Shown here: positions 4,991-51,494 of the stretch, one piece after another
Numbering within the stretch: the stretch's first letter is position 1
Layout: every line of letters starts with the position of its first letter
NCBI GenBank assembly: GCA_029624815.1
Contig: JARSSH010000024.1
Location: forward strand, 1 to 63,041
Direction: 5' to 3'
Source: Candidatus Competibacter sp.
GTDB taxonomy: Bacteria > Pseudomonadota > Gammaproteobacteria > Competibacterales > Competibacteraceae
DNA: 63,041 nucleotides
Position numbers and translations under genes: made by a program
Notes under the pieces: model-generated
What the model was told of the DNA's origin: nothing
Databases searched by the model: none
The model's input: only the letters and a program-made list of their open reading frames with translations

Positions 4991-5013
4991 ATCCATCCCA
5001 CCGGGATTTTCGC

Positions 5014-6575: not shown

Positions 6576-6592
6576 GACGGGGCAAGATCGTC

Positions 6593-7948: not shown

Positions 7949-8012
7949 AAATCAACCCTTGCCGAACCGGCGGCTATTCTTCCCAAGCAACATCAAACGG
8001 AGGACATTTCCC

Positions 8013-8513
8013 ATGGCAACCATTACCTTCAAAGGCAACCCCATCCACACCAACGGCGATCTGCCCGCCGTCGGCGCGTCCGCGCCCGATTTCAAGCTGG
8101 TCACCGCCGATCTGAACGACGTCACCCTGGCTGATTTCGGTGGCAAGAAGAAACTGCTGAACATCGTGCCCAGTCTGGATACCCCGGTGTGCGCGTTGTC
8201 CACCCACAAGTTCAACGAGCACGCCAAGACTCATCCCGACACGGCGATTCTGGTGGTCTCCGCCGATCTGCCCTTCGCTCAAAGCCGGTTTTGCGGCAAC
8301 GAGGGCCTGGAAAATGTGGTCACCCTGTCGATGATGCGTTCGCGCAAGTTCGCCAAGGATTACGGCGTGCTGCTGGAAGACGGACCATTGGCCGGCCTGA
8401 CCGCCCGCGCCGTGGTGGTGCTGGACGGGAACAACACCGTGCGCTACACCGAACTGGTGCCGGAAATTGCCCAGGAGCCGGATTACAACGCGGCGCTGGC
8501 GGCGTTGCAGTGA
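8013..8513 (+). CDS. tpx: Thiol peroxidase, atypical 2-Cys peroxiredoxin
   Basis: A 166-residue periplasmic/cytoplasmic-type Tpx that reduces hydroperoxides using thioredoxin. The peroxidatic cysteine is in [12 protein letters not shown] (about residue 60) and the resolving cysteine in SRFCGNEG (about 94), the spacing of the atypical 2-Cys class. A longer frame is open upstream, but the ATG at 8013 has a strong GGAGG-type site at 7998-8005 and gives the canonical [18 protein letters not shown] start. The gene sits inside the gcv operon, between the two P-protein subunits and 8 bp before gcvPB, so it is probably co-transcribed. That placement is unusual. Confidence 0.96.
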
Positions 8514-8520
8514 TCCTTTC

Positions 8521-9975: not shown

Positions 9976-9980
9976 TCGAG

Positions 9981-10343
9981 ATGGCTTTCCAAAATCACAA
10001 GGGGTGGCGGCGACTGATCAACGCCACCGGTTACTCCTGGGCCGGGTTGAAGGCGGCCTGGCGCAACGAAGAGGCGTTTCGCCAAGAGGGTCTGCTGTGC
10101 GTGGTGTTCGCGCCGCTGGCCTTGTGGCTGGGCAACAGCGCGGTGGAACGAGTGCTGTTGATCGGCAGCCTGCTGCTGATCGTGATCGTCGAACTGCTGA
10201 ACACCGGCATCGAGGCGGCGGTGGATCGGATCGGTCCGGAACATCACGAGCTATCGGGCCGGGCCAAGGACATCGGCTCGGCGGCGGTGTTCGTGGCGCT
10301 GCTGAACGCGGGCGTGGTCTGGCTGCTGCTCCTGCTCACATGA
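9981..10343 (+). CDS. dgkA: Diacylglycerol kinase, DgkA type
   Basis: A 120-residue integral inner-membrane kinase that phosphorylates diacylglycerol to phosphatidic acid, recycling lipid from membrane-derived oligosaccharide synthesis and LPS modification. It has three membrane segments (about residues 37-50, 55-75 and 100-119). The family signature ELLNTGIEAAVDRIG is followed by HELSGRAKDIGSAAV, with the catalytic Glu in the first. Length matches E. coli DgkA (122 aa). The ATG at 9981 is 5 bp after the gcvPB stop, so it is likely the last gene of the gcv transcript although its function is unrelated. Confidence 0.95.
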   Translation: MAFQNHKGWRRLINATGYSWAGLKAAWRNEEAFRQEGLLCVVFAPLALWLGNSAVERVLLIGSLLLIVIVELLNTGIEAAVDRIGPEHHELSGRAKDIGSAAVFVALLNAGVVWLLLLLT

Positions 10344-10350
10344 AAGGTGA

Positions 10351-10372
10351 TTTCCGCCCATAAAGGCGGAAA
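10351..10372 (+). terminator. Hairpin after dgkA, possible terminator
   Basis: TTTCCGCC (10351-10358) and GGCGGAAA (10365-10372) form a perfect 8-bp stem with a 6-base loop directly after the dgkA stop. There is no U-tract, so it may be an RNA-stabilising 3' hairpin or a weak terminator. Confidence 0.4.
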
Positions 10373-10413
10373 CACGCCTCACTGCAATTAAGCAACACCC
10401 TCAAGAATTTGTG

Positions 10414-10441
10414 TTGACTTAAATTTTTTTACGTCAATAAT
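10414..10441 (+). promoter_or_regulatory. Sigma-70-like promoter of the two-ATPase operon
   Basis: TTGACT at 10414-10419 and AATAAT at 10436-10441, separated by 16 bp, lie in an AT-rich spacer. The -10 box falls inside the first of two palindromes, and transcription would start about 35 bp before the ATG at 10484. Confidence 0.5.
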
Positions 10442-10462
10442 GACGTACGTCTATTTTGACGT
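10431..10462. promoter_or_regulatory. Two abutting 16-bp palindromes, likely operator
   Basis: Copy 1, ACGTCAATAATGACGT (10431-10446), has perfect 6-bp arms ACGTCA/TGACGT. Copy 2, ACGTCTATTTTGACGT (10447-10462), has 5 of 6 matching arm positions. They are directly adjacent and cover the -10 box and start point of the promoter, a layout typical of repression by a dimeric regulator. The regulator is unknown; the winged helix in the downstream 859-aa ATPase is one candidate. Confidence 0.6.
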
Positions 10463-10483
10463 AATTTTTTATGGACGTATGCC

Positions 10484-11674
10484 ATGAAAGCAAATCCTGG
10501 TGGGGCGGTTTCTCCTGAAAACGTCATGGGGCGAGACCGCCTCATCGAACGCCTTTGGGCCACCCTGAAGCACCAAAGCCTGGTGTTGGTGGCCGAACGG
10601 CGTATGGGCAAGACCTGCATTATCAAAAAGATGGAGGCGCAGCCACCGGACGGAACCATGATTCGGGTTCGAGATGTCGGCGGCGTCAGCAGTCCTATCG
10701 AGTTCGTGGAACGAGTCGCCGAGGATGTGGAAAAACACCTTAACCTGTTCCAGAAAACGGCAACCAAAACCAAAGAACTCTGGGCCGCCTTGGGAGGCAC
10801 CCAAATCCTCGGTGTAAAACTGCCCACAACTGCGGCTCTCCACTGGAAAGCGCTGTTGGAACGGATTCTGGGTGACCTTGCCCAGCACAGCGACCGACCA
10901 GTCATTCTATGCTGGGACGAGTTGCCCTGGATGTTGCAGAAGATGACTGCTCGTCCAGAAGGGGAAACGGTCGTCATGGACCTCCTGGATACGCTCCGTG
11001 GACTGCGCCAAACCCATGCCAATCTGCGCATGATTTACACGGGCTCCATCGGCCTGCATCACGTCGTGACCGCCCTCCGCGAAGAGGGCTACGTCAATTC
11101 CCCGGTCAACGACATGCGCACGGTCGAAGTGCCGCCTCTGGATGACGGGCACGCCGAAGCCTTGGCCAAGGCGCTGATACAGGGAGAAGGGCTGACCAGC
11201 AGCGCTCTGGATGAGACCGCCGCCATCATTGCAAAGCGTGTGGACGCCATCCCTTTCTATATCCATCATGTGGTCGCCGCCATGGCGGATCGAGGCCAAG
11301 CCGCGACACCCGAGATCGCCGAAGCGATCGTCGCCGAGGCGATTGCGAATGCCCAGGATTGGGATCTGGAGCATTTTCGGAGCCGGCTGGGCGCTTATTA
11401 CGGCGAGCGCGCCGAAGTGGTCCGGGCGCTGTTGGATCAGTTGGCCGAGACTGAACCGCTGATCCTCGACGAGTTGCACGAGCGGCTTAAATTCAACCTC
11501 TCCCGGCTCGGCGCAAGCGCCCAACGCATGGTCGAAGGCGACCGAGAGGCGCTCCGCACCCTGCTCAAGCTCATGCAACGGGATCATTATCTGCGTCAGG
11601 ATCGGGATGGCGGTTACCGGTTTCGCTTCGGTCTCATCCGTCGTTGGTGGCGTTTGGATCAGGGTCTCGCCTGA
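10484..11674 (+). CDS. AAA/STAND-type ATPase (COG1672-like), first of a coupled pair
   Basis: A 396-residue P-loop protein resembling the 'predicted archaeal-type ATPase' group (MNS clade of STAND NTPases). After the box VMGRDRLIERLW come a Walker A of the form AERRMGKT (37-44), Walker B VILCWDEL (140-147) and a sensor-like MIYTGSIGLHHV (183-194). The remainder, about residues 215-396, is helical with a winged-helix-like end (LLKLMQRDHYLRQDRDGGYRF). No catalytic effector domain is recognised. Its stop is immediately followed by the ATG of the next ATPase, so the two are translated together. Proteins of this group often occur in variable regions and some STAND NTPases sense phage, but the role here is unknown. 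No classical toxin, nuclease or transposase is adjacent. Confidence 0.75.
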   Translation: MKANPGGAVSPENVMGRDRLIERLWATLKHQSLVLVAERRMGKTCIIKKMEAQPPDGTMIRVRDVGGVSSPIEFVERVAEDVEKHLNLFQKTATKTKELWAALGGTQILGVKLPTTAALHWKALLERILGDLAQHSDRPVILCWDELPWMLQKMTARPEGETVVMDLLDTLRGLRQTHANLRMIYTGSIGLHHVVTALREEGYVNSPVNDMRTVEVPPLDDGHAEALAKALIQGEGLTSSALDETAAIIAKRVDAIPFYIHHVVAAMADRGQAATPEIAEAIVAEAIANAQDWDLEHFRSRLGAYYGERAEVVRALLDQLAETEPLILDELHERLKFNLSRLGASAQRMVEGDREALRTLLKLMQRDHYLRQDRDGGYRFRFGLIRRWWRLDQGLA

Positions 11675-37845: not shown

Positions 37846-37922
<77 letters not shown>

Positions 37923-37965
37923 TACACGAGCTGGGCGTCTTGCTGAGCTGTTTTCCCGCGACAAC

Positions 37966-38042
<77 letters not shown>

Positions 38043-38072
38043 AATCCCGGCAAGGTTAATTCGGATGCAATG

Positions 38073-38148
38073 GTGGGCGTAGCTCAGTTGGTAGAGCCCC
38101 GGATTGTGGATCCGGTCGTCGTGGGTTCGAGTCCCATCGTCCACCCCA
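38073..38148 (+). tRNA. tRNA-His (GTG)
   Basis: Acceptor GTGGGCG/CGTCCAC, anticodon loop TTGTGGA with anticodon GTG, encoded CCA. The extra G-1 typical of tRNA-His is available at 38072 opposite discriminator C. Confidence 0.97.
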
Positions 38149-38199
38149 CTAAACTTGGATTTTTGGGATCGTGCTTAATCCCAACCGCAAAGCTCTTAT

Positions 38200-38275
<76 letters not shown>

Positions 38276-38438: not shown

Positions 38439-38849
38439 GGGTAGTCCTGCAACAAAGTAGTGATTGGTTAGCTCTAGACCAGGATACCGGTGAGGTGGTG
38501 TAGGCATTTTGTCGGGGATCGCAGTCGGGCAGGCGCCAAAGGATTATGGGATTCCTTGTCGCCAGTTTATCGTCAATGCACAGTTTGCCACACTGATTTT
38601 TGGGAAGTTCATAATGCTATATTTCCTGCCAAACGCCACCAAGCGGTAAGCAAGGGAAGTGATAAAACCAATAAAATAGAAAGACTCAATTGTCCCTTGA
38701 GACAACGAGTTTTCCGCTTAGTCAGACAGACGCTTTCTTTTTCAAAAAAGCTCGAAAATCATATTGGGGCTATCTGGCATTTCATTCACCACTATAATAA
38801 AACCTTGCTTATCGCTGCATGATGGTGCATACAATTTGCAGGACTACCC
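38439..38849 (+). mobile_element. Internally deleted IS1-family element
   Basis: Inverted ends GGGTAGTCCTGCAA (38439-38452) and its complement (38836-38849) enclose about 411 bp, roughly half of a full IS1 (about 770 bp). Only the C-terminal part of the transposase remains. No clear 8-9 bp target duplication is visible outside the ends. Such a two-ended deletion derivative could still be moved by an active relative. Confidence 0.75.
38490..38822 (+). pseudogene. IS1-family transposase (InsB) C-terminal remnant
   Basis: The frame reads HFVGDRSRAGAKGLWDSL, VYRQCTVCHTDFW, then KIERLNCPLRQRVFRLV and LSFSKKLENHIGAIWHFIHHYN, closely resembling the end of IS1 InsB. The zinc-finger InsA part and the start of the catalytic core are missing, so it cannot be functional. 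The apparent start codon lies where foreign sequence joins the remnant. Confidence 0.85.
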
Positions 38850-38968: not shown

Positions 38969-41900
38969 TCAATGCTCGCCCCCCGCCTCGAACGCCCGCG
39001 CCACCTGCTCCACCGCTCCACTGATGGTTTCGATCCACGGATCGGCGTACAGCCCGACGCCAACGATCACCGCGCACAGCAAACCGGCCACGATCAATTC
39101 CCGCGACCGTAGATCGACCAGGGGCAATGTCACCCCCTTCGGATTACGGGCCAGGAAAATCCGCTGATAGGCCCACAGCAGATAGCCGGCCGCCAGCACA
39201 TTGCCGGAAGCGGCGACGATGGCCACGCCCCAACCATAGGACTCGAACACCCCTTCCAACGCCAAATGGGCGGCCTCGAAACCCGGTGTGCCCGGCATGG
39301 CGATGCTGCCCAGCACCACCACCAAAAAGGTCAAGCCGAGCAAGGGCGCGGCGTCGAACAAGCCACCTAGACGGTGAAACCGGGTCGTGCCCAGACGGCG
39401 GTACAGCAAACCCGCGACGATGAACAGTCCCGCCGCCGCCAATCCCAGATTCAGGCTGAGCAGAAGACCGCCCTTGAACCCGGACGCGGTCAGCGAGAAC
39501 AAGCTGGCCACCAGCGCCCCGGTATGGCTGATCACCGCAAACGCCAGCAGGCGGCGCAGGTCGGTGCGAATGAAGGCCAGCAACGCGCCGTACACCATGC
39601 CGGCCAGACCCAGCGCCACGATGGCCGTGTCCCACTGCCGGGCGGCGGCGGGCAGCAGGGGCAGAACAAAGCGCAGCAGCGCGTAAATTCCGACCTTCGT
39701 CCCCACCAGAAACACCATGCCGACCGCAACCGTGCCATGCTTGGCCACGATGGGCAGCCAGGCGTGCAGGGGGAACAGCGCCAACCGCACCGCCAGCCCG
39801 GCGAACAGCAGGATGAAAATCAGCGACTGCCGCCCTTCCGGCACCGGCGTTGCCAACAAGGCGGGCAAGTCGAAGGACCAAACGCCATCGGCCGCGCCGG
39901 CATGGTTCCAAGCCAGCAACACGATCCCGGCCAACAGCATCGCCAAACCGCCCAACATGGAGCGCGCGAACTGCCAGGCCGCCCGGTTGCGCCCCGGACT
40001 GGTCCCGTAGCAGGCGATCAGCACGGTGGCCGGAATCGCCTCGGCCAGCGCGAACAACCAGAATTGCAGCAGATTCAAGGCGGTGAACATCCCCACCAAC
40101 GCCGCCTCCAGCGCCAGCACACTACCCACGAACGCGCCGGGCCGTTCCTGTCGGTGCGGCTGGGCATAGAGGATGACGAACAGCGTCAACAACGCCGTCA
40201 GCGGCAGGAACAGCACGCTGAGGCCATCGACGCCAAGATGAACGCCCAGCCACGGCAACACCTCGAAACGCTCGACGAACTGCATCCCCGGTGCATGCGC
40301 CTGGAAACCGGCCAGCAGTTGCACCGCCAAAATCAGTTCCACCGCCGCGACGGTCAAACCCAATGCAAACGCGGTCCGCGCTTGCCGAGCGCGCCAGGTC
40401 GCGATCATGCCGAGCAGGGGCACTCCAAGTAGCGCGCTCAACAGCGGGAAACCGGCCGGTCCGGTTCCCGGCTCCTCTCCACCGTGCATCATCTCGCCGA
40501 TCCCGGCCAGCACCGCCAGGATCGCCGCCATCACCGCGATCCAGGTCCAGGATCGCCCCAGCCAGCGTTCCACCCGGCTCAATCCATACCCCATGCGGTG
40601 ACTGCTCGTCACAATTCCCTGCCCGACGGCCTTGAAGACCAGTTGTTCCTCGACCCGATGGAATGCCGCCGCCGTCCACTCGGTCACATGCCCGACGATC
40701 CCCTGCCCTCGGTCCATGGCGTCGGGCGCGCGTTCGAGCACCCGGCCGGCGCCGAGTTGCCGCTCCTCCCACTGGGCCAGCGACGACAAGGCACTCACCG
40801 CCGGGGCCGGCAACCCGGTCGCCCGATCCACCACGGCGGTATCGAACACATTCAAATAACCGGCCAAGCGGCGCAGCGGCCGGAGCACGCTCCAGTTCGC
40901 AAGATCCTCCAGCCAGAATCGTTGCAACGCCGCCACGTAGACCCGGCGTCGGCGAGCGAGCCAGGCCGGCACCGGGCGAGCGCGGGCACCGTGCAGTTGG
41001 TACAGAATCGCCGGCGCGCTGAGGAACTGATAGGCACGAAACGCCGCGTGACAGCACAGATGCGCCAGCGCCAGTCGCCAGAAGCCGAGCCCGCAGGCGA
41101 GAAACATCAACCCGACTTGCCCCGAGGTGGAAAAGATTAGGGCGCTCTTGATATCGGTCTGCGTCAGTCCGCTCAGGAATCCGTACAGCGCTGTTGCCAG
41201 TCCGACCGCCGCCAGTACCGCCATCATCTCCGGCGACTGCTCGAACAGCGGTTGCAGGCGCAGCAGCAGATACACGCCGGCGTGGACCATGACCGCGCCG
41301 TAGAACAGGGCGCTGGACGGCGTCGGCCCCTCCATCGCCCGCGCCAGCCACGGCGCCAGCGGCACTTGCGCCGATTTGGCGACCGCCGCCAGCAGGAAAC
41401 AGCCGGCCAGAACCCCGATTTGCGCCGCATTCAAACCCGCCGCGCCGACGGTCACCGTCTCCCAGTCGGCGCCGCCCAGCCAATGGAACGATAGCGCGAT
41501 CCCCAGCAGAAAGCCGGCATCGCCGACCCGGTTGGTCACGAAGACTCGGGTGGCGTTGCCCGCCGCGACCGGTCGGTCCTGGAAAAACGCGATGAGTAAA
41601 TAGGAGCACAGCCCGGCCACTTCCCAGCCGACGAAGGTGAGTACCGCGTTGCCGCCCGTCACCAGCAGCGCCATCGCCGCCGCGAACAGATTCAACACCA
41701 GGAAGAAGCGATGAAAACCGGCTTCCCGGTGCAGGTAGTTCACCGAGAATCGAGCGACCAGCAGGCAGATCAGTGACGCCAATACCAGCAGCGCGAGACT
41801 CAAATCGTCGACGACGAAGTTCAGGTCCACCTGAAACTCACCGCTGGCCAGCCAGCGGCCGAGCACCACCCGTTCGGGCAACGGTCCGGCGAGCCGGGCG

Positions 41901-42073
41901 ATCACCAGCGCCAGCGCTGCCGCGAACGACGCGCCGCAAGCCGTCAAGGCGATTTGGCTGGTGCGTCGCTCGTGCCCTTCGCCGCTGGCCCGCCCGAACA
42001 GAATGGCCAGGCCGATCCACAGGGCGGCGGCCAGAGGCGAAGCCGGGATCAGGGCCACGATCCACTCAAGCAT
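38969..42073 (-). CDS. Fused NuoL/NuoM-like proton-translocating membrane protein (DabB-like)
   Basis: A 1034-residue integral membrane protein made of two complex-I antiporter-like halves. The N-half (about 60-365) is NuoL-like: NFVVDDLSLALLVLASL, TFVGWEVAGLCSYLLIAFF, KSAQVPLAPWLARAMEGPTP. A loop-rich middle follows, then a NuoM-like half (about 590-1030): VHLGVDGLSVLFLPLTALL, LFPLHAWLPIVAKHGTVAVG and FIRTDLRRLLAFAVISHTG. No complex I subunits are nearby. Given dabA and a NuoM-like gene on the same strand, it is best read as the cation-conducting partner of a DAB-type bicarbonate uptake complex. ATG 42073 is preferred over 42082 because GGAG sits 9 bp before it. An island of opposite-strand genes now separates it from dabA. 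Confidence 0.8.
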   Translation of the reverse strand: MLEWIVALIPASPLAAALWIGLAILFGRASGEGHERRTSQIALTACGASFAAALALVIARLAGPLPERVVLGRWLASGEFQVDLNFVVDDLSLALLVLASLICLLVARFSVNYLHREAGFHRFFLVLNLFAAAMALLVTGGNAVLTFVGWEVAGLCSYLLIAFFQDRPVAAGNATRVFVTNRVGDAGFLLGIALSFHWLGGADWETVTVGAAGLNAAQIGVLAGCFLLAAVAKSAQVPLAPWLARAMEGPTPSSALFYGAVMVHAGVYLLLRLQPLFEQSPEMMAVLAAVGLATALYGFLSGLTQTDIKSALIFSTSGQVGLMFLACGLGFWRLALAHLCCHAAFRAYQFLSAPAILYQLHGARARPVPAWLARRRRVYVAALQRFWLEDLANWSVLRPLRRLAGYLNVFDTAVVDRATGLPAPAVSALSSLAQWEERQLGAGRVLERAPDAMDRGQGIVGHVTEWTAAAFHRVEEQLVFKAVGQGIVTSSHRMGYGLSRVERWLGRSWTWIAVMAAILAVLAGIGEMMHGGEEPGTGPAGFPLLSALLGVPLLGMIATWRARQARTAFALGLTVAAVELILAVQLLAGFQAHAPGMQFVERFEVLPWLGVHLGVDGLSVLFLPLTALLTLFVILYAQPHRQERPGAFVGSVLALEAALVGMFTALNLLQFWLFALAEAIPATVLIACYGTSPGRNRAAWQFARSMLGGLAMLLAGIVLLAWNHAGAADGVWSFDLPALLATPVPEGRQSLIFILLFAGLAVRLALFPLHAWLPIVAKHGTVAVGMVFLVGTKVGIYALLRFVLPLLPAAARQWDTAIVALGLAGMVYGALLAFIRTDLRRLLAFAVISHTGALVASLFSLTASGFKGGLLLSLNLGLAAAGLFIVAGLLYRRLGTTRFHRLGGLFDAAPLLGLTFLVVVLGSIAMPGTPGFEAAHLALEGVFESYGWGVAIVAASGNVLAAGYLLWAYQRIFLARNPKGVTLPLVDLRSRELIVAGLLCAVIVGVGLYADPWIETISGAVEQVARAFEAGGEH

Positions 42074-42159
42074 GGTCAACATCTCCGCGTCATCGTTCGG
42101 CTTCCATCGGTTGTGCTAGCGTACCCAGCGACCAATATGGAACAGTATGGGTGTATGGC

Positions 42160-42257
42160 ATGAAAACCATCATGGAATTGAACGACAGCCTGCTCGAAGA
42201 GATCAAGCGCCATGCCACGCAATATCACACCACCTCGTGGACGGTGATCGTTCGATG
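42160..42257 (+). pseudogene. VapB-type antitoxin N-terminal remnant
   Basis: From ATG 42160 the frame reads MKTIMELNDSLLEEIKRHAT and then QYHTTSWTVIVR, the strand-helix start of VapB/RHH-type antitoxins. It then breaks into sequence complementary to the next gene. No PIN-domain toxin is adjacent. This looks like the left scar of an insertion or deletion. Confidence 0.6.
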
Positions 42258-42266
42258 CCAGCGAGC

Positions 42267-42656
42267 TTACCACCGGGGCAACGGCGGTGGTGGAGGTAGC
42301 GGTACTACGGGCGCCACCATCGCCGGCCGTCGATAGCCGACCCGAGGCGGCCCGTAGTCGCCGTGCGGCCCGTAGTAATGGCGGTGGCCTCGGTAGTAGT
42401 GACCGGGCCGCCCGTAATAGCCGTGACGCCCGTAATAGCCATGACGCCCGTAATAACCGTGACGCCCGTAATAGCCGTGACGCCCTCGGTAGTGCACTCG
42501 GTAAATGCCGTCGTCGTCACCATGGTAGTCGCCAAGGCGCGCGGTGGCCGCATCATCTCGACCGTAGAGGCGGCCATCCCCCGCATGGGCGCTTTGTAAC
42601 GGGACCATGATCGCGGTGGCGACCGCGACGCCCAGCAGCCATTTCATTGCGTTCAT
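42267..42656 (-). CDS. Secreted Gly/Tyr/His/Arg-rich repeat protein
   Basis: A 129-residue protein with a signal peptide (MKWLLGVAVATAIMVPLQSAHA). The mature part has four GRHGYY repeats, then YYRGHRHYYGPHGDYG and a proline-rich end (PLPPPPPLPRW). The ATG at 42656 has a GGAGC site 9 bp upstream. No family function is known; such tracts occur in envelope-exported small proteins. Four near-identical 18-bp DNA units encode the repeat. Confidence 0.7.
   Translation of the reverse strand: MNAMKWLLGVAVATAIMVPLQSAHAGDGRLYGRDDAATARLGDYHGDDDGIYRVHYRGRHGYYGRHGYYGRHGYYGRHGYYGRPGHYYRGHRHYYGPHGDYGPPRVGYRRPAMVAPVVPLPPPPPLPRW
42411..42482. repeat. 18-bp coding tandem repeat, four units
   Basis: Units of CCCGTAATAGCCGTGACG at 42411, 42429, 42447 and 42465 differ by one or two bases. 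On the minus strand they encode GRHGYY. Copy number could change by slippage. Confidence 0.85.
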
Positions 42657-43070
42657 CGGTTCGCTCCTGTCCGCCCATACGGGCGGCTTGGTTCTTCATC
42701 AAGGGTGGGATTGGAACTCTTCACGCGGGCGAGGCCGACGATCCGCCATCCATCGCCCGGTGACTCGAATGATCCCGGAATTCGCCTGAGCATGGGCTGA
42801 ATGAAGGGCGAACGGAAGCTGAACGGTCGTGCGGCGCGGCAACGAACCGAAACGGTAAAAAGCGACGGCCCTCGGTAACTCGGATATCATGCAACGTGTG
42901 CGGTAGGCAGAGCGAAGCAAGGCGAAATGAGAAAAGCAAAGCATTAGCCGGAGCGGGGGTTGAGACATTCGGCGAATGTCGAAGCACCAGCGGGAGGCAG
43001 GGGACGGAATACGCTTTGAAATAGGTATTATTCGACAAAACGACAATTTTTTATCGAACAGGAGATAGTT
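42657..43070. other. Intergenic stretch between divergent genes
   Basis: No gene recognised. The right end is AT-rich (43011-43070), carries TATTAT near 43027 and an AGGAGA ribosome site for the LprI-like gene. A minus-strand frame (42699-43076) has no family-like features and is considered spurious. Confidence 0.4.
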
Positions 43071-43466
43071 ATGCAAATCAAATTGATGATCGCTATATTA
43101 ATAAGTCTGTTCGCCATTTCAAATTCAGTGATCGCCGAAGAGTGCAGTAGTCGATTAGAGGATTCTGTTTTTATCATGGATTGCCTTTCGGCGCGTTATA
43201 AAGCGGCCGATAAAGAACTCAACGCGATATACGATGAAGCCATGAAATCGCTTTCAAGCGACGGAAGGCAGAAACTTGAGGCAGCGCAAAAAGCATGGCT
43301 TAAATATCGCGATGCCAGTATGGCATTCATAACGGAAGTCAATAGAAAAACAGGGTCTACCGGTAATTTTATCATTGAGGATTACAGATCAGCTCTTGTG
43401 GAAAAACGAGCTGCGGAATTGAAGTATATCCTTAGCGGCCCTGATGCGGGTCCAGCCACATGGTAA
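43071..43466 (+). CDS. LprI/DUF1311-like lysozyme-inhibitor-type secreted protein
   Basis: A 131-residue exported protein. The signal peptide (MQIKLMIAILISLFAISNSV) is followed by a DUF1311 domain: CLSARYKAADKELNAIYDEA, then LEAAQKAWLKYRDASMAF. Two conserved cysteines (AEECSS, MDCLS) probably pair. LprI-type proteins inhibit lysozyme in mycobacteria; many proteobacterial members are uncharacterised. An AGGAGA site lies 7 bp upstream. Codon use is clearly AT-richer than the flanking dab genes, suggesting transfer. Confidence 0.85.
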   Translation: MQIKLMIAILISLFAISNSVIAEECSSRLEDSVFIMDCLSARYKAADKELNAIYDEAMKSLSSDGRQKLEAAQKAWLKYRDASMAFITEVNRKTGSTGNFIIEDYRSALVEKRAAELKYILSGPDAGPATW

Positions 43467-43689
43467 GGCGATCAGAACGGCAGTAGTTACAAGCACGCCA
43501 TTGCTCCAAAAACCCTGGGCACTCGATGATCGAGCATCATCTGGATTTGCGCCCACATCGGACAGGAGCGGATGGAGAAGGTGGTAGGGAGGTTGTGAGC
43601 AGAGGGGAGGTTAGCGAGCAAAATACTCCACTTATGTAGAACGATCTCCACATGTTTTTAGTTTCCCTTCTGGATTAGCGTGATTAGTT

Positions 43690-45801
43690 ATGAATCAGCA
43701 ACCCAACCTCGAAATTATCCACGGTAGCAGCCGGCACAATCCAATCGTACTTAAGGGGATTACGGGAGCACTCCAACAAGCTAAGATCATGGGTGCATTT
43801 TACATTGGTTACCCAGTCATAGCGTCGTCTGATTCAAGCCTGACTGTTGATGCATTGCTAGTATCGCAGACGCCCGGCCTTGTAGCCTTCCATCTTTTCG
43901 AAGCAGGTCAGAACTATAGAGATTATCAGGACCGCCTTTACTACATTCTTGAGGCAAATCTCAAAAAATATGAGTCGCTTCGGTCAGGTCGTAGTTTGAG
44001 TGTACCGATTAATATTGTATCGATCTTCCCCGAAGGAGATGTCCCTGCTGACGCCGACGAGCAGTACCCCGCAGCAAGCATCAACAGTTTGGCGGACGTT
44101 TTGCGAAACGCAAAGGGCGTGGTGGATGAGACACTCTACCGAAAGCTCTCGGCTGCCATCCAGCGGGTAACAACAATCAAGCCGACAAAGAAACGCGCTA
44201 ATGTCGCCAAGCCCGACTCCAAAGGCGCGATCCTGCGAGAGATCGAAAAGGAGATCGCCAATCTCGACTGGTGGCAGAAAGCAGCAGCAATCGAGACCCC
44301 GGATGGTCTCCAACGGATCAGGGGCTTAGCTGGGTCGGGAAAGACGGTCGTACTGGCACTGAAGGCGGCATACCTGTACACGCAACATCCAGACTGGAAG
44401 ATCGCGGTTACATTCCACACTCGGTCTCTTTATCAGCAGTTCAAAGACCTGATCGAGCGCTTTACCCTTGAGCATATGGGGGATAAGCCAGATTGGCAGC
44501 AGATCCATATCGTCCATTCCTGGGGATCGCCCAGTGAGAACGGTATCTACTCGATTGCTTGCAATGCCATCAACCTTTTGCCCATCAATTACCTGACAGC
44601 GAAATCACGGTATGGCGCACGGCGGGCGTTCGTGGGTGTCTGCAATGAGCTGGCCGCAGCAGTCAAGGGCAAGCAACTGGACCTATACGATGCCATGCTG
44701 ATTGACGAGGCGCAGGATCTTCCGCCATCTTTCTTCCAGATTGTCGATGCGCTCACCAAGCAACCCAAGAGAATTATCTGGGCTTACGACGAGCTTCAGA
44801 ATCTTTCAGAGACTAGCATGGCAGCACTACCGGACCTGTTCGGCCGCGAGATAATGCTAACGAACGCGCCGGATGCACCGCGTCAGGATATCATTCTTCC
44901 AGTCTGCTATCGCAACACTCCTTGGGCATTGACTCTGGCACACGCACTTGGATTTGGGTTATTTCGCAAGCCAGATATCGTGCAGCACTTCGATGAACCT
45001 TCCATGTGGTTGGATATCGGGTACATGAAAGAAAGCGGAGAGTTGCAGGCAGGTAAGCTAGTTACGTTGAGTCGGGCGCGCGATTCATACCCGCCGTTTT
45101 TCAAAAAACTACTATCGCCAACCGATGCAGTCGCTTCGTATACGTTTATGTCGTGCGAGGAGCAGTATGTCTGGATTGCCGAGGAGATCAAGCGGAATAT
45201 CGAGCAAGACGAGCTTGATCCCGATGACGTCATGGTTGTGCTACCAGACCCGATCAGTCAGAAATCCGAGTATTTTGGACTCCGTCGACATCTCGAATCA
45301 CACGGTATCCCGTCAAACCTGGCTGGGATCACCAACGACCGTGACACCTTCATCGAACCCGGTGCGGTGACGATCTCTGGTATCTATCGAGCCAAGGGCA
45401 ATGAAGCGCCGATGGTTTACATCGCCAATGCAGACCATTGCGCCATTGGGCATGAGTTGATTCGATTGCGGAACATCTTGTTCACTGGCATTACCCGATC
45501 ACGCGCGTGGGTGCGGCTGTGTGGCGTAGGCGAGCAAATGGCCATGCTTCAGCAGGAAATTGACCAAGTTGTTAGCAACAACTTCAGGCTGACTTTTACT
45601 GTGCCGACTCCCATACAACTCAAGACAATTCGGCAAATTAATCGTGACCGGACTACACAAGAAAAAGACCAGATCAAGAAGGCCCAAAAAGATATCAATG
45701 AAATCATTGAGTTAATACGACAAGACGTGATTTCGATAGACGCGATGCCACAACTTCAAAATCTAATTAAGGAGGCGCAGAGGCGCAATGAAGAGCAATG
45801 A
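43690..45801 (+). CDS. SF1 helicase with N-terminal nuclease-like region, partner of DUF2290 protein
   Basis: A 703-residue UvrD/DUF2075-like superfamily 1 helicase. Walker A is GLAGSGKTVVLALKAA (near 216-222), Walker B LIDEAQDLPPSFF, motif III-like IIWAYDELQNLSE, and motif VI ILFTGITRSRAWVRL. The first 160 residues hold a segment (VDALLVSQTPGLVAFHLFE) arranged like the NERD/restriction-like core, but the lysine is not evident, so any nuclease there may be inactive. The last 80 residues are coiled-coil. Its stop overlaps the ATG of the DUF2290 gene (ATGA, 45798-45801). AT-richer codons than the surrounding genes and position inside the dab locus imply horizontal acquisition. Confidence 0.8.
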   Translation: MNQQPNLEIIHGSSRHNPIVLKGITGALQQAKIMGAFYIGYPVIASSDSSLTVDALLVSQTPGLVAFHLFEAGQNYRDYQDRLYYILEANLKKYESLRSGRSLSVPINIVSIFPEGDVPADADEQYPAASINSLADVLRNAKGVVDETLYRKLSAAIQRVTTIKPTKKRANVAKPDSKGAILREIEKEIANLDWWQKAAAIETPDGLQRIRGLAGSGKTVVLALKAAYLYTQHPDWKIAVTFHTRSLYQQFKDLIERFTLEHMGDKPDWQQIHIVHSWGSPSENGIYSIACNAINLLPINYLTAKSRYGARRAFVGVCNELAAAVKGKQLDLYDAMLIDEAQDLPPSFFQIVDALTKQPKRIIWAYDELQNLSETSMAALPDLFGREIMLTNAPDAPRQDIILPVCYRNTPWALTLAHALGFGLFRKPDIVQHFDEPSMWLDIGYMKESGELQAGKLVTLSRARDSYPPFFKKLLSPTDAVASYTFMSCEEQYVWIAEEIKRNIEQDELDPDDVMVVLPDPISQKSEYFGLRRHLESHGIPSNLAGITNDRDTFIEPGAVTISGIYRAKGNEAPMVYIANADHCAIGHELIRLRNILFTGITRSRAWVRLCGVGEQMAMLQQEIDQVVSNNFRLTFTVPTPIQLKTIRQINRDRTTQEKDQIKKAQKDINEIIELIRQDVISIDAMPQLQNLIKEAQRRNEEQ

Positions 45802-46475
45802 ATGCGAAACAAATCGCCCGAGTCATTGCCACTACTTGCCAAGCTTTAAACTCGCTGGATCTGCTTTTTACCTACAATAACCCGTGCGTTGTTAGTCTAG
45901 AGGGCTGTGATCGGGTATCTTGGCCCGCCAAGATACCGGACAGCACCAAGGCTCCTTCGTTCGGGACGCTTGAACAGTATTTGGAATGGGTCCGCAATGG
46001 CGAGTTCACATGCCTGCTCTTTGACTACTCGTTGATTCGAGCATCTTACGAGTGCGTCGGGAACACGGTTGTGGGACACAATCTGCTGTACTGGCCATGC
46101 CCTGTTGGTTTTCTTGTAGAGGTCTCTTGTCTAAGGGATCTCCGTGAAGGTATCGAGATGTGTATTGATTCGCCGCGCCAAGCGCACGGGGTCGTCAGCC
46201 TGACAATGCGCACGCCGATGCGTTTCGATTTTGATCCAGATAGGGAGAGCGATGACCACCCGCTTGTCCACCTGCACACCCAATTTGATGACACGCGCAT
46301 GAGCGTTCAACGAGCAATGGACTTTCCTTCGTTTATAAAGAAGGTGATACGTACGTTCTACCGCAACAAGTGGGCATCGCATCCTGAAATTGGATGTCTG
46401 CACGAGCAATCCATTGATCACAAGGAAATCCAGTTCGACCCCCCACAGCATGTTTTTCAGGTCTCTTGGGGTTAG
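45798..46475 (+). CDS. DUF2290 domain protein
   Basis: A 225-residue protein with DUF2290 features: GTLEQYLEWVRNGEFTCLLF, DYSLIRASYECVGNTVVGHN and the YWPCPVGFLVE segment. Later blocks are RFDFDPDRESDDHPLVHLHT and FIKKVIRTFYRNKW. The domain has no assigned activity. It is translated from an ATGA overlap with the helicase gene, so the two proteins probably act together. I recall DUF2290 genes next to ATP-binding helicase genes in variable regions, which suggests a two-gene defence module (inference). Confidence 0.78.
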   Translation: MNAKQIARVIATTCQALNSLDLLFTYNNPCVVSLEGCDRVSWPAKIPDSTKAPSFGTLEQYLEWVRNGEFTCLLFDYSLIRASYECVGNTVVGHNLLYWPCPVGFLVEVSCLRDLREGIEMCIDSPRQAHGVVSLTMRTPMRFDFDPDRESDDHPLVHLHTQFDDTRMSVQRAMDFPSFIKKVIRTFYRNKWASHPEIGCLHEQSIDHKEIQFDPPQHVFQVSWG

Positions 46476-46701
46476 CAGCTTCGCTCGTTGCCCTACAAAA
46501 ACCTCCTCAACTGCTCCGGTATCTTTTCCACTCCCCGTTCCTCCCCCATCTCCAGCGTCACCGCCGCCTCGCCGGGCTTAAGTCAGAACTGCGCACCGCC
46601 ATCCAATCCAGTCACAGCCCCAACTCTGTGGCGCGAGCGTAGTGCAATTGCAAGACGCCACCCCGGTAGATAGCTGGGTAATAGCGATCCACGTTTCGGC
46701 T
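46476..46701. other. Right junction of the island, no gene recognised
   Basis: Short stretch between the DUF2290 gene and the dabA stop. No inverted repeat, integrase site or conserved frame was identified. Confidence 0.35.
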
Positions 46702-49700
46702 TCAAATCTCACTCTCACCGATCAATGCCGGCGACAACGGGTCGGTATGGCCGCGATACCAATCACCCGAACGGGCGCGTTCGGGCAATGGCCGCAGAGG
46801 TTCGGCCCAGGGCACAAAACCTCGTGCCGGGTCGAAAATCGAAAATTCCCCGCTGTCGGGATCCTTGGCGATCACATGCACCCAGTCGCCGCCAATCAGT
46901 TCGCGCAGGCTGGGCTGACGCTGGTAAATAGCGGTCAGCACTTCGGTACTCGCCTCGACCACGATTTGCAAGCGCAGCGGCTCGTGAATCTCGATCATCT
47001 GCCGGGGCAGGCCGGTGCGCAGATCGCTACTGGCCCCCTCCATCACCGCGAACAGGCCGGTGACGTTGTGCGGCGTCTTGGTTCCGCAACCCAAGCGCTC
47101 GTTGTTGACGGTGGAAAAGTAGTACTCCAGGTTGATGCCCGCGCCCACCGGACCCACCGCCAGCAGGATGCCCTCCAACACGGTCCCGCTGGGATCCTGA
47201 GTCGGGTCGTAGGAAATCAGGAACGCCCGCCGGTCCAGGAACAGTCCCTGACTCATCGAGCGGCGGCCGACCAGGGCGGCGGCATTGGTGGCATGCCCCA
47301 GTTCGGGCCGCGCCTGGCTGAAATCCCTGGAGCGCTCCACCACATGCCGTAGCGCCTGGGCCGGCGTGGGGTCGCGCGGCGCGGAAGCGAAACGGCGGCA
47401 GCGTTCGTGGGCCGACCGTTCGCAAGCCTGGTCCAGAACCCGCCGCAATTCAGCTAGTGCCGGTGCCAGCGCGGCCGGCAGATCACCGGGATCGTACAGA
47501 GTGATCAGTTCATCACAGGTGTTGTGCTCGGCCCCGATGAACCAGGTGTCCTCCGGCACCTCGATGCCGCGCTCGGCCAGCAACGCCCGCACCGCCGGGC
47601 GATTGGCCATGGTGGCGAAGGCGCGGGCGTTCGGTCCGCCATGGCGTCCGCTGCACGCCCCGCAGTCGTAGGCGGCGAGATGCGGGTTGTTCTGGCTGAT
47701 CGAACCATGGCCCATCAGCACCGTCAGCGGCGCGAACCGCGTGGTCAGCCCGATATTGCGCAACAGAGCGGCTACCCGGTCGGCCTGCTCGGTGTCGGTG
47801 AACCCCAGGCGCGGCCGTTCCGGCGTAGCCGGCGTACCGTCGTCCGCCGCCGTGACCGCGACTTGCGTGGGCACCGCCGGCACCCACAGCGCGTCGATCG
47901 CCGTCACGAGGGTCGCCTGCCGGCTGGGGGCAAATAGCTTGCCGGCCAGCGTCAGCAGCGCGCCCGGCGCCAACGCGGCGATCAGCGGCGCCGAGGACAA
48001 CAGGTTGCGCCGGATCTCGTGATACAGGTCGCGCAACCGGTCGCGCCGGTCACGCCGCTGGTCGTGCAGCGCATGGCGTGCTTCGGCACCCGGCCGCGCG
48101 ACTTCGCGCACCTCATGGGCGGGCGTGGCCACCACCGGACAGAGCGGCGTGACCTCGCGGTCGTCCAGGCCGCGCCAATTCATCACCACCCCGAAAAAAC
48201 CGGCGGCACCCAAGGTCTCGATCCGTGGGTTCAGCTCTTCCAGATGGCGACGGATGCCCTCCTCCCGGTCGTCGATGCAAAACACGATCTGGGCTTGCGG
48301 CCGTTGCGCGCGCGCAGCCCAGCGACCGTGATTGTTGGCCAGGGCATTGATCAGCTCATCGCGATAGTGGTGCTCGTAGGCGCATTGCCACAGCGCGCCG
48401 CGCAGGGTGGCCGGCAATTCGTCCAGCGGCGCCAGCAACGTCTCCAGATCCGGCAGACTCAGCGCGCGCAACGCGCCGCCGGACAACCCGAGATGCTGGG
48501 CCAGCCGAAACAACCGCCAAGCGCTGCCGTGGACCGTGTGCGTGCCGGGCCGCGTCGCCACCGGGCTGTGCCGCCAGGTCCAGATCATGTCGGCCAGGGA
48601 CTCCCAAGGGGCGCGCGTTGCCTTCCCCACGCGCTCCATTCCCCTTTCCGAAAGGGCCATTCCCCCCTCCACCAGCGCTCTTGCCCGGCTGGCCAGATAT
48701 TCGGGTAGGCGTCCTTCGTACAGAGCCTGCCGGACCAGCGTCTCGGCCGGGCGCGCGGTGAAGTAGTCGCGCAACGCCGGCAACGAGCCTTCCAGTCCCC
48801 AATGCTCGCGGCACAGTTGCTCGATCCACAGACCGTCCAGGCACAAGCGCAGCGCGAGATAATCCGCCAGCGCGACCGGCGTTTCCCGATTAGCCGGGTA
48901 AGCGCCGTGTTGTTGTCGCCAGTTCATCATGCCGGACCAGCCGGGCAACTCCAGGGCGAGACGGGTCAGATAAGCTTCCCAGCGCGGCTCGGGGATGCCC
49001 AGTCGCCGCAGCTCGGCGACGATCGCGTCCAGCGGCTGCTCCGGCCAGCGCGCCAGCGCCGCGCGCCAGCCGCTCAAGCCGGCAAAGGTCCAGGCGAGAT
49101 CGCTGCCGGCCAGGCGGCGCCACGCCGCGTACAGCCCTTCGCTCCGATCGGGCAAAGGCCAGGCCGCCAGTCCTTCGTCCAAATGGGCGGCGCACAGGCG
49201 GATCAGCACCGGACGGACCCGATCGAGCAGATCCTGGCCGGTCAATACCCGCAACAATCCCCGAAAGGTGCTCTTCTCGCCGATCTCGGCGAACGATCGT
49301 TCGATCAGCGCCAGGGCATCGGCTTGCATCCGCTTGTGAACGACGGGGCCCTGGTTCTCGGTCATGCCATCGGCTCTGAAACGCGCCAGCAACGACTTCG
49401 CCAGGTTGATTTGCAAGTCTTCCAGTTCTTCCGGATGCAGGTCGAAATCGGGCAGTCGCAAGCCGTGCAGGCAGGCGTGCCACAGGCTTTCCAGCGCGCG
49501 GGCTTCTCCAGCGATCTCTTCACGCTCGGCCGCCGCCAGCAGCCGCTGGCGCACGGTCGCCGGCACATCGGACTGAAAGCGCCGGGTGACGTCGAATTCC
49601 TCGATCCGCCAAATCAGTTGGCTCAGGGGCAGGGCCTCCACCCCGTGGACCAGCGCCACGCGCAGCACCTCGCCCCGGCGGATGTCCCGATCCCCGGCGC

Positions 49701-50016
49701 GGACCAGCACGGCCTCGGTCTCAAGCGCTGCCCGCCGGGCGAATGCCGCATCCAGATCCGTGTCGGTGATCCGACCGGTCCGGTACAGCGCGCGAAAGTG
49801 CTCCTCGGGCAGATAGGCGCGAATCCCGGTGAGCTGCTCGGCCGCCGCCAGCGCCTGTTCGAACGGCAGGTGCTGATAACCGTGCAGCGTGTTGTGATGG
49901 ACGAAATTCAGGATCGGCGCCTGGCCGGGCAACACATGGTCGAGATGGGCAATGGCCTGCTCGACGATCTGGCGTGGCCCGAGTGAAGGCCGATCGGGCG
50001 CGACGGTCGCGGACAT
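46702..50016 (-). CDS. dabA: DabA-type inorganic carbon transporter subunit (DUF2309/UPF0753)
   Basis: A 1104-residue peripheral membrane protein that, with a DabB-type cation channel, converts CO2 to bicarbonate vectorially for carbon accumulation. The start MSATVAPDRPSLGPRQIVEQ and VHHNTLHGYQHLPFEQAL are canonical. The four zinc/active-site residues of DabA are conserved: C580 and D582 in VFCIDDREEG, H770 in LMGHGSISQNNPH and C785 in YDCGACSGRHGG, with the His-to-Cys spacing of 15 as in the characterised protein. A much longer open frame (to 51777) is only antisense or off-frame through the NuoM-like gene; ATG 50016 has an AAGGAG site 7 bp upstream. Confidence 0.93.
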   Translation of the reverse strand: MSATVAPDRPSLGPRQIVEQAIAHLDHVLPGQAPILNFVHHNTLHGYQHLPFEQALAAAEQLTGIRAYLPEEHFRALYRTGRITDTDLDAAFARRAALETEAVLVRAGDRDIRRGEVLRVALVHGVEALPLSQLIWRIEEFDVTRRFQSDVPATVRQRLLAAAEREEIAGEARALESLWHACLHGLRLPDFDLHPEELEDLQINLAKSLLARFRADGMTENQGPVVHKRMQADALALIERSFAEIGEKSTFRGLLRVLTGQDLLDRVRPVLIRLCAAHLDEGLAAWPLPDRSEGLYAAWRRLAGSDLAWTFAGLSGWRAALARWPEQPLDAIVAELRRLGIPEPRWEAYLTRLALELPGWSGMMNWRQQHGAYPANRETPVALADYLALRLCLDGLWIEQLCREHWGLEGSLPALRDYFTARPAETLVRQALYEGRLPEYLASRARALVEGGMALSERGMERVGKATRAPWESLADMIWTWRHSPVATRPGTHTVHGSAWRLFRLAQHLGLSGGALRALSLPDLETLLAPLDELPATLRGALWQCAYEHHYRDELINALANNHGRWAARAQRPQAQIVFCIDDREEGIRRHLEELNPRIETLGAAGFFGVVMNWRGLDDREVTPLCPVVATPAHEVREVARPGAEARHALHDQRRDRRDRLRDLYHEIRRNLLSSAPLIAALAPGALLTLAGKLFAPSRQATLVTAIDALWVPAVPTQVAVTAADDGTPATPERPRLGFTDTEQADRVAALLRNIGLTTRFAPLTVLMGHGSISQNNPHLAAYDCGACSGRHGGPNARAFATMANRPAVRALLAERGIEVPEDTWFIGAEHNTCDELITLYDPGDLPAALAPALAELRRVLDQACERSAHERCRRFASAPRDPTPAQALRHVVERSRDFSQARPELGHATNAAALVGRRSMSQGLFLDRRAFLISYDPTQDPSGTVLEGILLAVGPVGAGINLEYYFSTVNNERLGCGTKTPHNVTGLFAVMEGASSDLRTGLPRQMIEIHEPLRLQIVVEASTEVLTAIYQRQPSLRELIGGDWVHVIAKDPDSGEFSIFDPARGFVPWAEPLRPLPERARSGDWYRGHTDPLSPALIGESEI

Positions 50017-50030: not shown

Positions 50031-51494
50031 TCAGTTCGGGATGAAGAGCGCGCTCAGATGCGCGACCGTGACGTTCATGAGTGCGATGACGGGCGCGGGA
50101 TGCAGCCCCAGGATCAGCAGTCCCGCCGCCAGCGGGAGCGCCGCCAGCCACTCGCTCGGCCGTAAATCCTGGAGTTCCGCCAGTTCCGGGCGCGGCGGGC
50201 CGGCGAACAACTGGCCGATGGTTCGGACCGCGTAGGCCGCGCTCACCAGCACCCCGAGGCTGGCCAGCAGCATCAGCCAGCCCCAGCGTTCGAAACCGCC
50301 GATCAAGACGTGCAGTTCGGCCACGAAGCCGATCAGGCCCGGCATCCCCATGCCCGCCAATAGCGCCAAAGTGATGAATAGGGTAAAGCCGGGCGTCACC
50401 CGCGCCAGCGCGCCATAGTCGGCGATCCGGCGGGTGTGGGTGCGCTCGTACAACAGGCCGATCAGCAGGAACAGCGCCCCGGCGATCAGTCCGTGAGCGA
50501 CCATCTGCAAGCCCGCGCCCAACAAGCCGGTTTCGTTCAGGGCCGAAATGCCGAGCAGCACCACGCCCATGTGGCTCACCGAGGAATAAGCGATCATCGC
50601 CTTCAGGTCGGTTTGCCGCCACGCCAGCAGGCCGCCGTAGAGGATGCTGGCCAGGGCGATGCCGGCCAGCAGCGCTTGCAGCGCCGCCGCCCCTTCCGGC
50701 AACATCGGCGCAACCCGCAGCAGGCCGTAGGCGCCCATCTTGAGCAAGACGCCGGACAGCAGAATGCTGACCGGACTCGGCGCTTCCACATGGGCGAGCG
50801 GCAACCAGCCGTGCAGCGGAAAAATGGGAATTTTCACCCCGAAGCCGACCAAAAACGCCAGCAGCAGCCACATCTGTTCCTCGCGGGGCAGCGCCGTCGC
50901 CGCTTGCGCGATGGCCGCCATCGCGAAGGACTGGGATGGGGTCAGCCGGTAGACCACGATGATGCCGATCAGAATGAAGATCGCCCCGCCCATGGTGTAC
51001 AGCACGAAGTTGAGGCTGGCGACGTGCCGCTTCTCGCCGCCCCACAGGTCGATCAGGAAAAACAGCGGGATCAGCGTCAGCTCCCAGAACATGAAGAACA
51101 GCGTCCAGTCCTGGGCCATGAATACACCGAGCATGGCGAATTCCAGTACCAGCATCCAGGAATAATAGCCCTTCGCGCCGGTCTTGATCCGATCCGAGGC
51201 CAGCAGCGCCACGGCGACCAGCAGGGTGGTCAGCAGCACCATCGGCAGCGACAGCCCGTCGATGCCCAGCGCGTAGGACACGCCAATGGTGGAACTCCAG
51301 ACCACCTGTTCCATCAGTTGGAGGGTCGCCACGTCTGGATCGTAATGAGCGAGCAGGCTCCAGGACAGCACCAGCGCCAGGCCGGCGTGGAACAGCGCCA
51401 GGCCGCGGATGAATCGTTGTTGGGCCGCCGGCAGCAGGGCGACCAGCACCGCCCCGAAAAAGGGCGCCCACAGGATCAGACTGAGCATACGCAT
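50031..51494 (-). CDS. NuoM-like proton-translocating subunit, DabB-like
   Basis: A 487-residue polytopic membrane protein of the complex I NuoM/MrpD antiporter family. Typical segments are YALGIDGLSLPMVLLTTLL, FFMFWELTLIPLFFLIDLWG, IFPLHGWLPLAHVEAPSPVS with the conserved lysine nearby, and LKAMIAYSSVSHMGVVLLG. About 14 helices. It starts at ATG 51494 (MRMLSLILWAPFFGAVLV) and stops 14 bp before dabA, so they are one transcript. No other nuo genes are present, so it likely drives DabA rather than respiration. Confidence 0.9.
   Translation of the reverse strand: MRMLSLILWAPFFGAVLVALLPAAQQRFIRGLALFHAGLALVLSWSLLAHYDPDVATLQLMEQVVWSSTIGVSYALGIDGLSLPMVLLTTLLVAVALLASDRIKTGAKGYYSWMLVLEFAMLGVFMAQDWTLFFMFWELTLIPLFFLIDLWGGEKRHVASLNFVLYTMGGAIFILIGIIVVYRLTPSQSFAMAAIAQAATALPREEQMWLLLAFLVGFGVKIPIFPLHGWLPLAHVEAPSPVSILLSGVLLKMGAYGLLRVAPMLPEGAAALQALLAGIALASILYGGLLAWRQTDLKAMIAYSSVSHMGVVLLGISALNETGLLGAGLQMVAHGLIAGALFLLIGLLYERTHTRRIADYGALARVTPGFTLFITLALLAGMGMPGLIGFVAELHVLIGGFERWGWLMLLASLGVLVSAAYAVRTIGQLFAGPPRPELAELQDLRPSEWLAALPLAAGLLILGLHPAPVIALMNVTVAHLSALFIPN

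Follow-up and report, generated by a model that had tools for sequence, protein, structure and literature searches.

A helicase-DUF2290 pair in the dab operon of Candidatus Competibacter, between putative borders formed by recombinase-like and ydjM-like gene ends

The pair between dabA and dabB

The window analysed here, a stretch of 63,041 nucleotides (contig C24, GenBank JARSSH010000024.1), belongs to a 3.63-Mb genome of the Candidatus Competibacter type; its family, the Competibacteraceae, comprises glycogen-accumulating organisms of wastewater plants. Our subject is an interval of 4,619 bp between dabA and dabB, two genes of the DAB inorganic-carbon operon that are both found, on one strand; transcription on the minus strand runs from a NuoM-like gene through dabA to dabB. 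The interval holds a superfamily 1 (SF1) helicase gene and a DUF2290 gene, with the last codons of an XerC-like recombinase gene on one side and the 3' end of a ydjM-like gene on the other (Table 1). An earlier note on this DNA had placed plus-strand LprI-like, helicase and DUF2290 genes, the last two joined by an ATGA overlap (45798-45801), between the minus-strand nuoM-dabA part and dabB, and these positions are confirmed. The inserted genes are also AT-richer, as the note had said: guanine plus cytosine (GC) content is 0.43 in LprI and 0.51 in helicase plus DUF2290, against 0.66-0.68 in dabB and dabA (a 129-amino-acid gene in the same interval has 0.65), and the pair is the 8th lowest in GC among 602 sliding windows of its size.

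Table 1. Features of the dab region, in order of position in the window
Feature	Coordinates	Strand	Evidence and remarks
tRNA cluster (Pro, Arg, His, Lys)	37846-38275		
IS1-type transposase remnant	38490-38822		PF03400, E 3e-11; between tRNA cluster and dabB end
dabB, fused NuoL/NuoM-like subunit	38969-42082	-	Pfam Proton_antipo_M, E 3e-85
Antitoxin-like gene, 5' relic	42160-42249	+	matches first 30 residues of an 82-amino-acid open reading frame in a relative
129-amino-acid Gly/Tyr-rich gene	42267-42656	-	homologues adjoin xerC pieces elsewhere
LprI-like gene, older resident common to genus	43071-43466	+	PF07007, E 4e-19; 83% (G001) and 95% (G003) identity
XerC-like recombinase relic, left border	43542-43598	+	last 18 codons (WICAHIGQERMEKVVGRL) and stop; DNA matches of 76-90% identity in other Competibacteraceae; tblastn; reading frame
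SF1 (UvrD/Schlafen-like) helicase, first pair gene	43690-45801	+	PADLOC 'Helicase' PDLC03002, 741 bits; residues 7-688 on profile positions 2-694 of 707
DUF2290 protein, second pair gene	45798-46475	+	PF10053, 102.8 bits (curated Pfam cut-off 25), E 2e-29; PADLOC DUF2290, E 4e-27
ydjM-like (PF04307) 3'-end relic, right border	46493-46696	-	last ~66 codons; tblastn E 2e-17; DNA matches to other copies, E down to 1.5e-35; stop codon 46493-46495
dabA, inorganic-carbon transporter subunit	46702-50016	-	DabA PF10070, 876 bits, E 4e-263; start codon inferred from reading frame
NuoM-like, first gene of dab operon	50031-51494	-	Pfam Proton_antipo_M, E 2e-70; 92-93% identity in sister genomes

Both frames of the pair are open (703 and 225 amino acids), with no stops or frameshifts. 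The helicase keeps the Walker A residues G217-K218-T219 and the D339-E340 dyad invariant with 14 relatives, and its motifs are invariant across 15 homologues; identity to the aligned relatives is 39-49% for the helicase and 21-28% for DUF2290. The pair resembles the Helicase+DUF2290 system (Rousset et al., 2022; PDLC03002 with PDLC02998/02999) in families, gene order, strand, overlap and full-length helicase match, and differs from it in being divergent; the part of PMC9122126 available to us mentions neither the host of the window nor this context, and it reports that a helicase-DUF2290 member from P4-like satellites inhibits T7. By sequence, then, the pair is an apparently intact, divergent member of a known anti-phage system; as a defence system it is not new.

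How tightly are the two genes linked? Three of the 59 relatives and four of the 369 genomes of the class carry DUF2290; together these are five distinct genomes, and the helicase adjoins it in all five. Conversely, all four helicase matches of at least 740 bits in the class set adjoin DUF2290, and none of the weaker matches in 73 other class genomes (best 265 bits) has a DUF2290 neighbour. An alignment query (A1) recovers 16 helicase loci from viral contigs: DUF2290 lies directly downstream in 12 of the 12 with room for it, and the other four helicases run to the contig end. Single-protein queries find less: P0001 or P0002 yields no relatives in the viral contigs, and P0001 has no match in 50,697 phage records. 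Seven plasmid records carry DUF2290, and in the four viewed the helicase is upstream with overlapping ends. The mobile two-gene defence module proposed in the earlier note is supported by a linkage that holds wherever it could be tested. One plasmid copy (L178, Thioflavicoccus mobilis pTHIMO01, 3747-6600) lies inside a bacteriophage exclusion (BREX) cluster, between a methyltransferase gene and pglZ, on a plasmid typed as conjugative; a second (L179) is near an abortive infection gene, and a third (L180) near type I restriction genes.

The helicase model (mean predicted local distance difference test score, pLDDT, of 84) has Foldseek matches to Schlafen (SLFN11), PcrA/UvrD and Dna2, at whole-chain template modelling scores (TM-scores) of about 0.3-0.4; the Schlafen group 3 helicase family matches 11 of 15 homologues weakly, and a search of solved structures with the helicase profile returns PcrA and UvrD1, while the same search with each single pair protein gave nothing usable. 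Residues 18-112 of the model follow the order alpha-beta-beta-beta-alpha-beta, which we take to be nuclease-like; of the 28 Pfam families matched in 15 helicase members, the 25 listed include no nuclease family. Residue D54 is kept in 8/8 and 11/15 members of two sets, and an [E/D]-x-K motif in the following strand in 1/8 and 3/15; it is absent from the window helicase. The earlier note had suspected a degenerate nuclease-like N-terminus, and most members do lack [E/D]-x-K; since the motif is rare across the family, its absence is a trait of most of that family and not decay of the window copy. In DUF2290, D76, R142, H154, H158, R167 and F179 are invariant in both alignments, and the five polar residues are candidates for an active or binding site. 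The DUF2290 model (mean pLDDT 75) has no confident PDB match (best Foldseek E 0.25), a second structural listing offers frataxin and CapZ at Z 5-6, too weak for use, and the profile finds nothing better than E 0.7 among solved structures. In the simplest model, inferred by analogy with further helicase-based systems, the helicase would act as sensor, loading onto single-stranded or broken DNA from phage (or plasmid) replication, and DUF2290, through D76, R142, H154, H158 and R167, would be the effector or its switch.

The interval around the pair was built in layers, as follows from what it shares with sister species. The antitoxin-like gene and LprI stand at the dabB side in G001, G002 and G003 (LprI of G002 is cut by a contig end), and the 129-amino-acid gene is present in G002 and G003. 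Similarity to the latter two breaks at ~42246, where both carry ~550-565 bp more, part of it an internally deleted xerC relic; on the dabA side, the sequence stays similar to G003 and G001 up to a point no more than 6 bp from the dabA stop, and no further. Only ~43,599-46,696 is specific to this genome among the sisters compared, and a search of the other four genomes of the genus (82-97% complete) turned up no DUF2290. The borders of the pair proper are 43599 and ~46696, and not the 42083 and 46701 of the earlier note, whose author had no means of recognising the xerC and ydjM relics there. The antitoxin-like relic, which that note had called a VapB remnant, is real as a relic; its 47-amino-acid translation has no Pfam match, so that the name VapB is the note's alone. 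Taken together, the dab region can be read as xerC relic - 129-amino-acid gene and LprI - xerC 3' end - helicase and DUF2290 - ydjM 3' end, with the first xerC relic inferred from G002 and G003. The last two of these parts, helicase/DUF2290 and ydjM 3' end, occur in the window alone among the relatives examined.

Recombinase and ydjM-like ends around variable cargo

The two flanks of the pair, 223 bp to the left of the helicase and 226 bp to the right of DUF2290, have matches at several sites in other Competibacteraceae, and the two matches often share a contig and keep their order. From 40 loci fetched for these matches, 39 were scanned (L223 lies inside L240), and both xerC and ydjM, whole or partial, are found in 21 loci from 14 other Competibacteraceae genomes and in the window. 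In 22 of 22 loci (window included) the nearest xerC and ydjM parts are convergent with cargo between them, a regularity of orientation that the choice of loci, which favours co-presence, does not favour. The xerC part of L248 is N-terminal, and in L232 there is an additional weak ydjM-like match (28% identity) in the other orientation. Across 39 genomes, xerC-like and ydjM-like protein matches share 17 contigs where 0.14 would be expected, a rough contig-level estimate from lists copied by hand that include some integron integrases; on two of the shared contigs (G008:C56 and G023:C6) the matches lie far from each other, and the xerC-like one belongs to an integron integrase.

The stop codon falls at the same position in 25 of 28 xerC ends, after which the sequences diverge, a few sharing a short block. 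Outside the family, only 4 of 369 class genomes have ydjM-like genes (E <=1e-20), not counting G008, which is in the class set but belongs to the family; the best of them (G284) is 50% identical and has no xerC match nearby. Among the papers listed for YdjM with a recombinase, cargo, integrase or hotspot, a fraction of all matching papers, none mentions YdjM, which does not prove that there is none. On an integron integrase model (cut-off 265) four slot recombinases reach 119-124 bits, and on an XerC model (cut-off 335) 199-208 bits; falling below both cut-offs, they are neither proven integron integrases nor housekeeping XerC.

Several loci carry border genes more than once. Two xerC 3' ends stand in tandem in each of L215, L219, L225 and L239, two ydjM 3' ends in each of L230, L236 and L249, and two xerC pieces, one of them a 3' end, in L231, L245 and L247. 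The genes beside the window pair recur in such company: as in G002 and G003, the 129-amino-acid gene is directly downstream of an xerC piece in L219 and L245, and LprI adjoins a ydjM end in L230. Scanning 45 loci for a palindromic site, TTTCNGAAAT-N4-ATTTCNGAAA, gave nine matches in 7 of them, every one upstream of an xerC-like gene and just upstream in L218 (2268), L240 (2573), L233 (5321) and four other loci, with none in the window and none in three shuffles; the pattern was taken from some of the same regions, so this result is not independent.

What lies between the borders differs from place to place. We compared 22 intervals (20 of the 21 loci, with L219 replacing L227, plus the window): similarity is confined to short matches, up to 140 bp, in six pairs (E 1e-4). 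The 21 intervals other than the window span 607-12,994 bp, 20 of them at most 4,396 bp. Their contents include AbiU (L251; PADLOC E 2e-183), a Tle1-like phospholipase, a tectonin protein, a subtilase, a sigma factor and a phospholipase A2-like (PLA2-like) protein whose match is below the Pfam cut-off. Three small genes between full-length xerC and ydjM in L233 (G015:C80, 1764-4280) have no PADLOC matches, and the two that were also scanned with Pfam have none there either; they are a candidate system.

At two orthologous sites, spread over five genomes, the cargo differs between matching borders. One such site is represented by L217 (G024), L247 (G028) and L220 (G019), next to genes resembling sbcC and sbcD. 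Between L217 and L247 identity is 90% over the 3.7 kb that lead up to the xerC stop, and similarity returns within the ydjM relic (89%, 292 bp); L217 and L220 are 88% identical over 2.6 kb of left flank, L217 having ~1 kb more before xerC, then 82% over 71 bp at the xerC end, and resume at the ydjM end at 94% over 1.1 kb. The cargo between (~1.3, 0.8 and 3.2 kb in L217, L247 and L220) shows no detectable similarity among the three, in DNA or protein. At a second site, L218 (G023) and L240 (G008) match at 87-93% identity as far as the xerC stop and again at the ydjM end (86%, 456 bp); their borders enclose 607 and 12,994 bp. These differences are the strongest evidence that cargo, and not the frame, is what appears to be exchanged. 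Since cargo differs between the same borders at orthologous sites, one can ask what moves it, the recombinase or plain homologous recombination.

Readings of the proposed slot and its known relatives

We consider it fairly probable, from comparison of these sequences, that the pair, a member of a known system, is cargo lodged in the dab operon, in a slot bordered by convergent xerC-like and ydjM-like 3' ends. The new part is this recombinase/ydjM cargo slot, not the defence pair; the cargo differences at orthologous sites suggest that it is a slot for cargo exchange or a small mobile element, comparable to the int-psu hotspot of P4 satellites. Copies of the frame would exchange cargo through homologous recombination in the conserved xerC/ydjM ends, through the recombinase, or through both. 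In the window, outer deletions would also have taken away the larger part of both border genes, so that what remained of them came to adjoin LprI on the left side and the dabA stop on the right. The ydjM-like relic, which has internal stops and a frame break, ends ~5-8 bp from the dabA stop codon.

A number of observations weigh against this reading. As only relics of both border genes are left in the window, any mobility there is in the past tense. Pieces of xerC and ydjM stand together at no other dab junction examined; the sister junctions of G001 (weakly), G002 and G003 show xerC pieces only. No att site or target-site duplication was found, and 148 bp of L247 cargo are 72% similar to DNA right of the slot in L217. 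AbiU is the sole strong PADLOC match among 10 cargo proteins from 8 loci, most cargo not being recognisable as defence. The anti-phage evidence, for its part, comes from another family member (against T7) and not from the window pair, and the effector role of DUF2290 is a guess from a model with no confident structural match.

A broader proposal, which we put forward tentatively as a possibility short of an even chance, is that xerC-like and ydjM-like genes are the two ends of an undescribed Competibacteraceae mobile element that swaps compact cargo, defence systems included, at the facing gene ends; tandem xerC and ydjM ends would mark successive captures, in an array with border-gene ends as its repeats.

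Could the pair instead have come by an ordinary one-off horizontal transfer, beside an old dead recombinase relic, with the xerC and ydjM ends mere neighbours and no slot at all? The decayed state of both border genes in the window fits this, as does the missing att site or duplication; moreover, an xerC relic is also found in G003 beside other cargo, which means that the relic predates the pair. We nevertheless think such a transfer unlikely: the ydjM relic lies on the far side of the pair, convergent as in all 22 loci, and at the two orthologous sites cargo differences break at the borders.

Less likely again is a decayed integron cassette array, in which xerC, ydjM and cargo were cassettes moved by true integron integrases. 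Such integrases, above the curated cut-off, are present in 18 of 39 family genomes and at two places in the window genome, L259 (G000:C54) 7485-11055 and G000:C42:7423-8352; on C54 an attC-like hairpin site is visible by eye (L259, 10994-11055). With true integrases so common in these genomes, some parts may have come from integrons. By eye, too, L241, L214 and L231 have a GTTAGRC-ended block after the xerC stop that resembles part of an attC site. Against an integron stand the scores of the slot recombinases tested, well under the integrase cut-off, and an attC scan of the slot loci that gave no match; this negative says little, because a similar home-made scan missed the by-eye attC-like sites in the host's own integron.

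We also doubt, a shade more strongly, that the pair is a selfish or plasmid-related helicase module, or a repair helicase, with no part in defence. PA1372/PA1371 of Pseudomonas aeruginosa PAO1, named as a helicase-DUF2290 pair in the accessible part of PMC11637435, gives this idea its footing: PA1372 has no detectable host role and made a plasmid costly, according to the accessible part of PMC4410645. Plasmid effects fit defence equally, though, a family member inhibits T7 (PMC9122126, as far as available), and the pairs of L178, L179 and L180 keep company with BREX, abortive infection and type I restriction genes. Like the window pair, PA1372/PA1371 couples a helicase to a DUF2290 partner within a small low-GC island, and it differs in being known for plasmid cost; the same portions of the two papers do not mention an xerC/ydjM frame. 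Finally, the single foreign island of 4.6 kb in the earlier note, with LprI, helicase and DUF2290 inserted as a unit, is hardly credible: all three genes are AT-richer than their neighbours and on one strand, but LprI and the antitoxin-like gene occur without the pair at the dabB side of G001-G003, the 129-amino-acid gene is in G002 and G003, and DUF2290 was not detected in the four same-genus genomes searched.

How does the proposed slot compare with known arrangements? In the P4 int-psu hotspot, as far as PMC9122126 was available, accessory systems, a Helicase+DUF2290 member among them, likewise lie between a tyrosine recombinase and a fixed second gene. The Competibacteraceae slot, unlike that hotspot, has a ydjM-like border in place of psu, occurs in several copies in some genomes, is bordered at facing gene ends and holds little recognisable defence cargo. 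The rulB integron-like elements (the portion of PMC4542609 at hand) also combine a conserved XerC/D-like recombinase side with a variable cargo side; those have three recombinases, a tetR gene and rulB as target, whereas the slot has one apparent recombinase (judging by the open reading frames of L218 and L233), is bordered by ydjM and occurs in many places.

The dab junction across the family

Did the pair split the carbon-uptake operon, as the earlier note proposed? Uninterrupted operons, the check it had called for, are indeed found: dabA and dabB are contiguous in most relatives outside the Competibacteraceae, where the gap is at least 380 bp in only 5 of 54 loci (seven loci with no dabB match were excluded). 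In the 18 Competibacteraceae with both genes on one contig, 5 gaps measure 1-152 bp and 13 measure 384-6,989 bp (Fisher p 7e-7, kinship ignored); in five further family genomes the dabA and dabB matches are on separate contigs. With 13 of 18 family loci at 384 bp or more, the operon was probably already split before the pair came. Nor do xerC/ydjM ends account for all insertions at this junction; we ruled this out, as the gaps of other genera lack them.

The gaps hold a HigB toxin (L043; PADLOC PD-Lambda-2_A, E 1e-38), a YhgA-like protein, PP2C, MarC, LysR, a histidine kinase and AAA proteins. An antitoxin-like open reading frame lies in the gaps of L047, L064, L167 and L168, and an antitoxin-like gene at the dab junction is common to two genera (g1, g10). 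At the neighbouring junction, between the NuoM-like gene and dabA, L035 (G012:C302, 10534-12517) has an insertion of ~2 kb, the only large one there among 12 family loci. On the dabA side of G003 (L031, G003:C31, 732-2700) stands a DUF1016/YhcG nuclease gene (PADLOC PDC-S02, E 7e-169) with a second dabA 3' end across it, in two blocks 96% and 91% identical to the genome's own dabA. The same slot in this sister (L166, G003:C10, 257-1554) holds a broken gene, by eye probably for a membrane protein, and a 147-amino-acid gene with no Pfam or PADLOC matches; its contig ends in what is presumably a transposase frame.

The window dabA and its counterpart in Candidatus Competibacter phosphatis (contig NZ_SPMZ01000031.1) share 94% identity, and most of the other best matches are in Competibacteraceae, which makes the genome one of the Competibacter type. 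A scan for promoters and terminators gave no signal above chance. Against sister species, the ratio of nonsynonymous to synonymous substitution rates (dN/dS) is 0.11-0.16 for dabA and 0.11-0.12 for dabB, which means purifying selection; the operon, although split, is thus probably still used. A dab carbon-uptake operon can take in accessory genes while such selection continues to act on its members, and the gap between two gene ends, if the slot is read correctly, would give a simple address at which to find accessory and defence genes of the Competibacteraceae.

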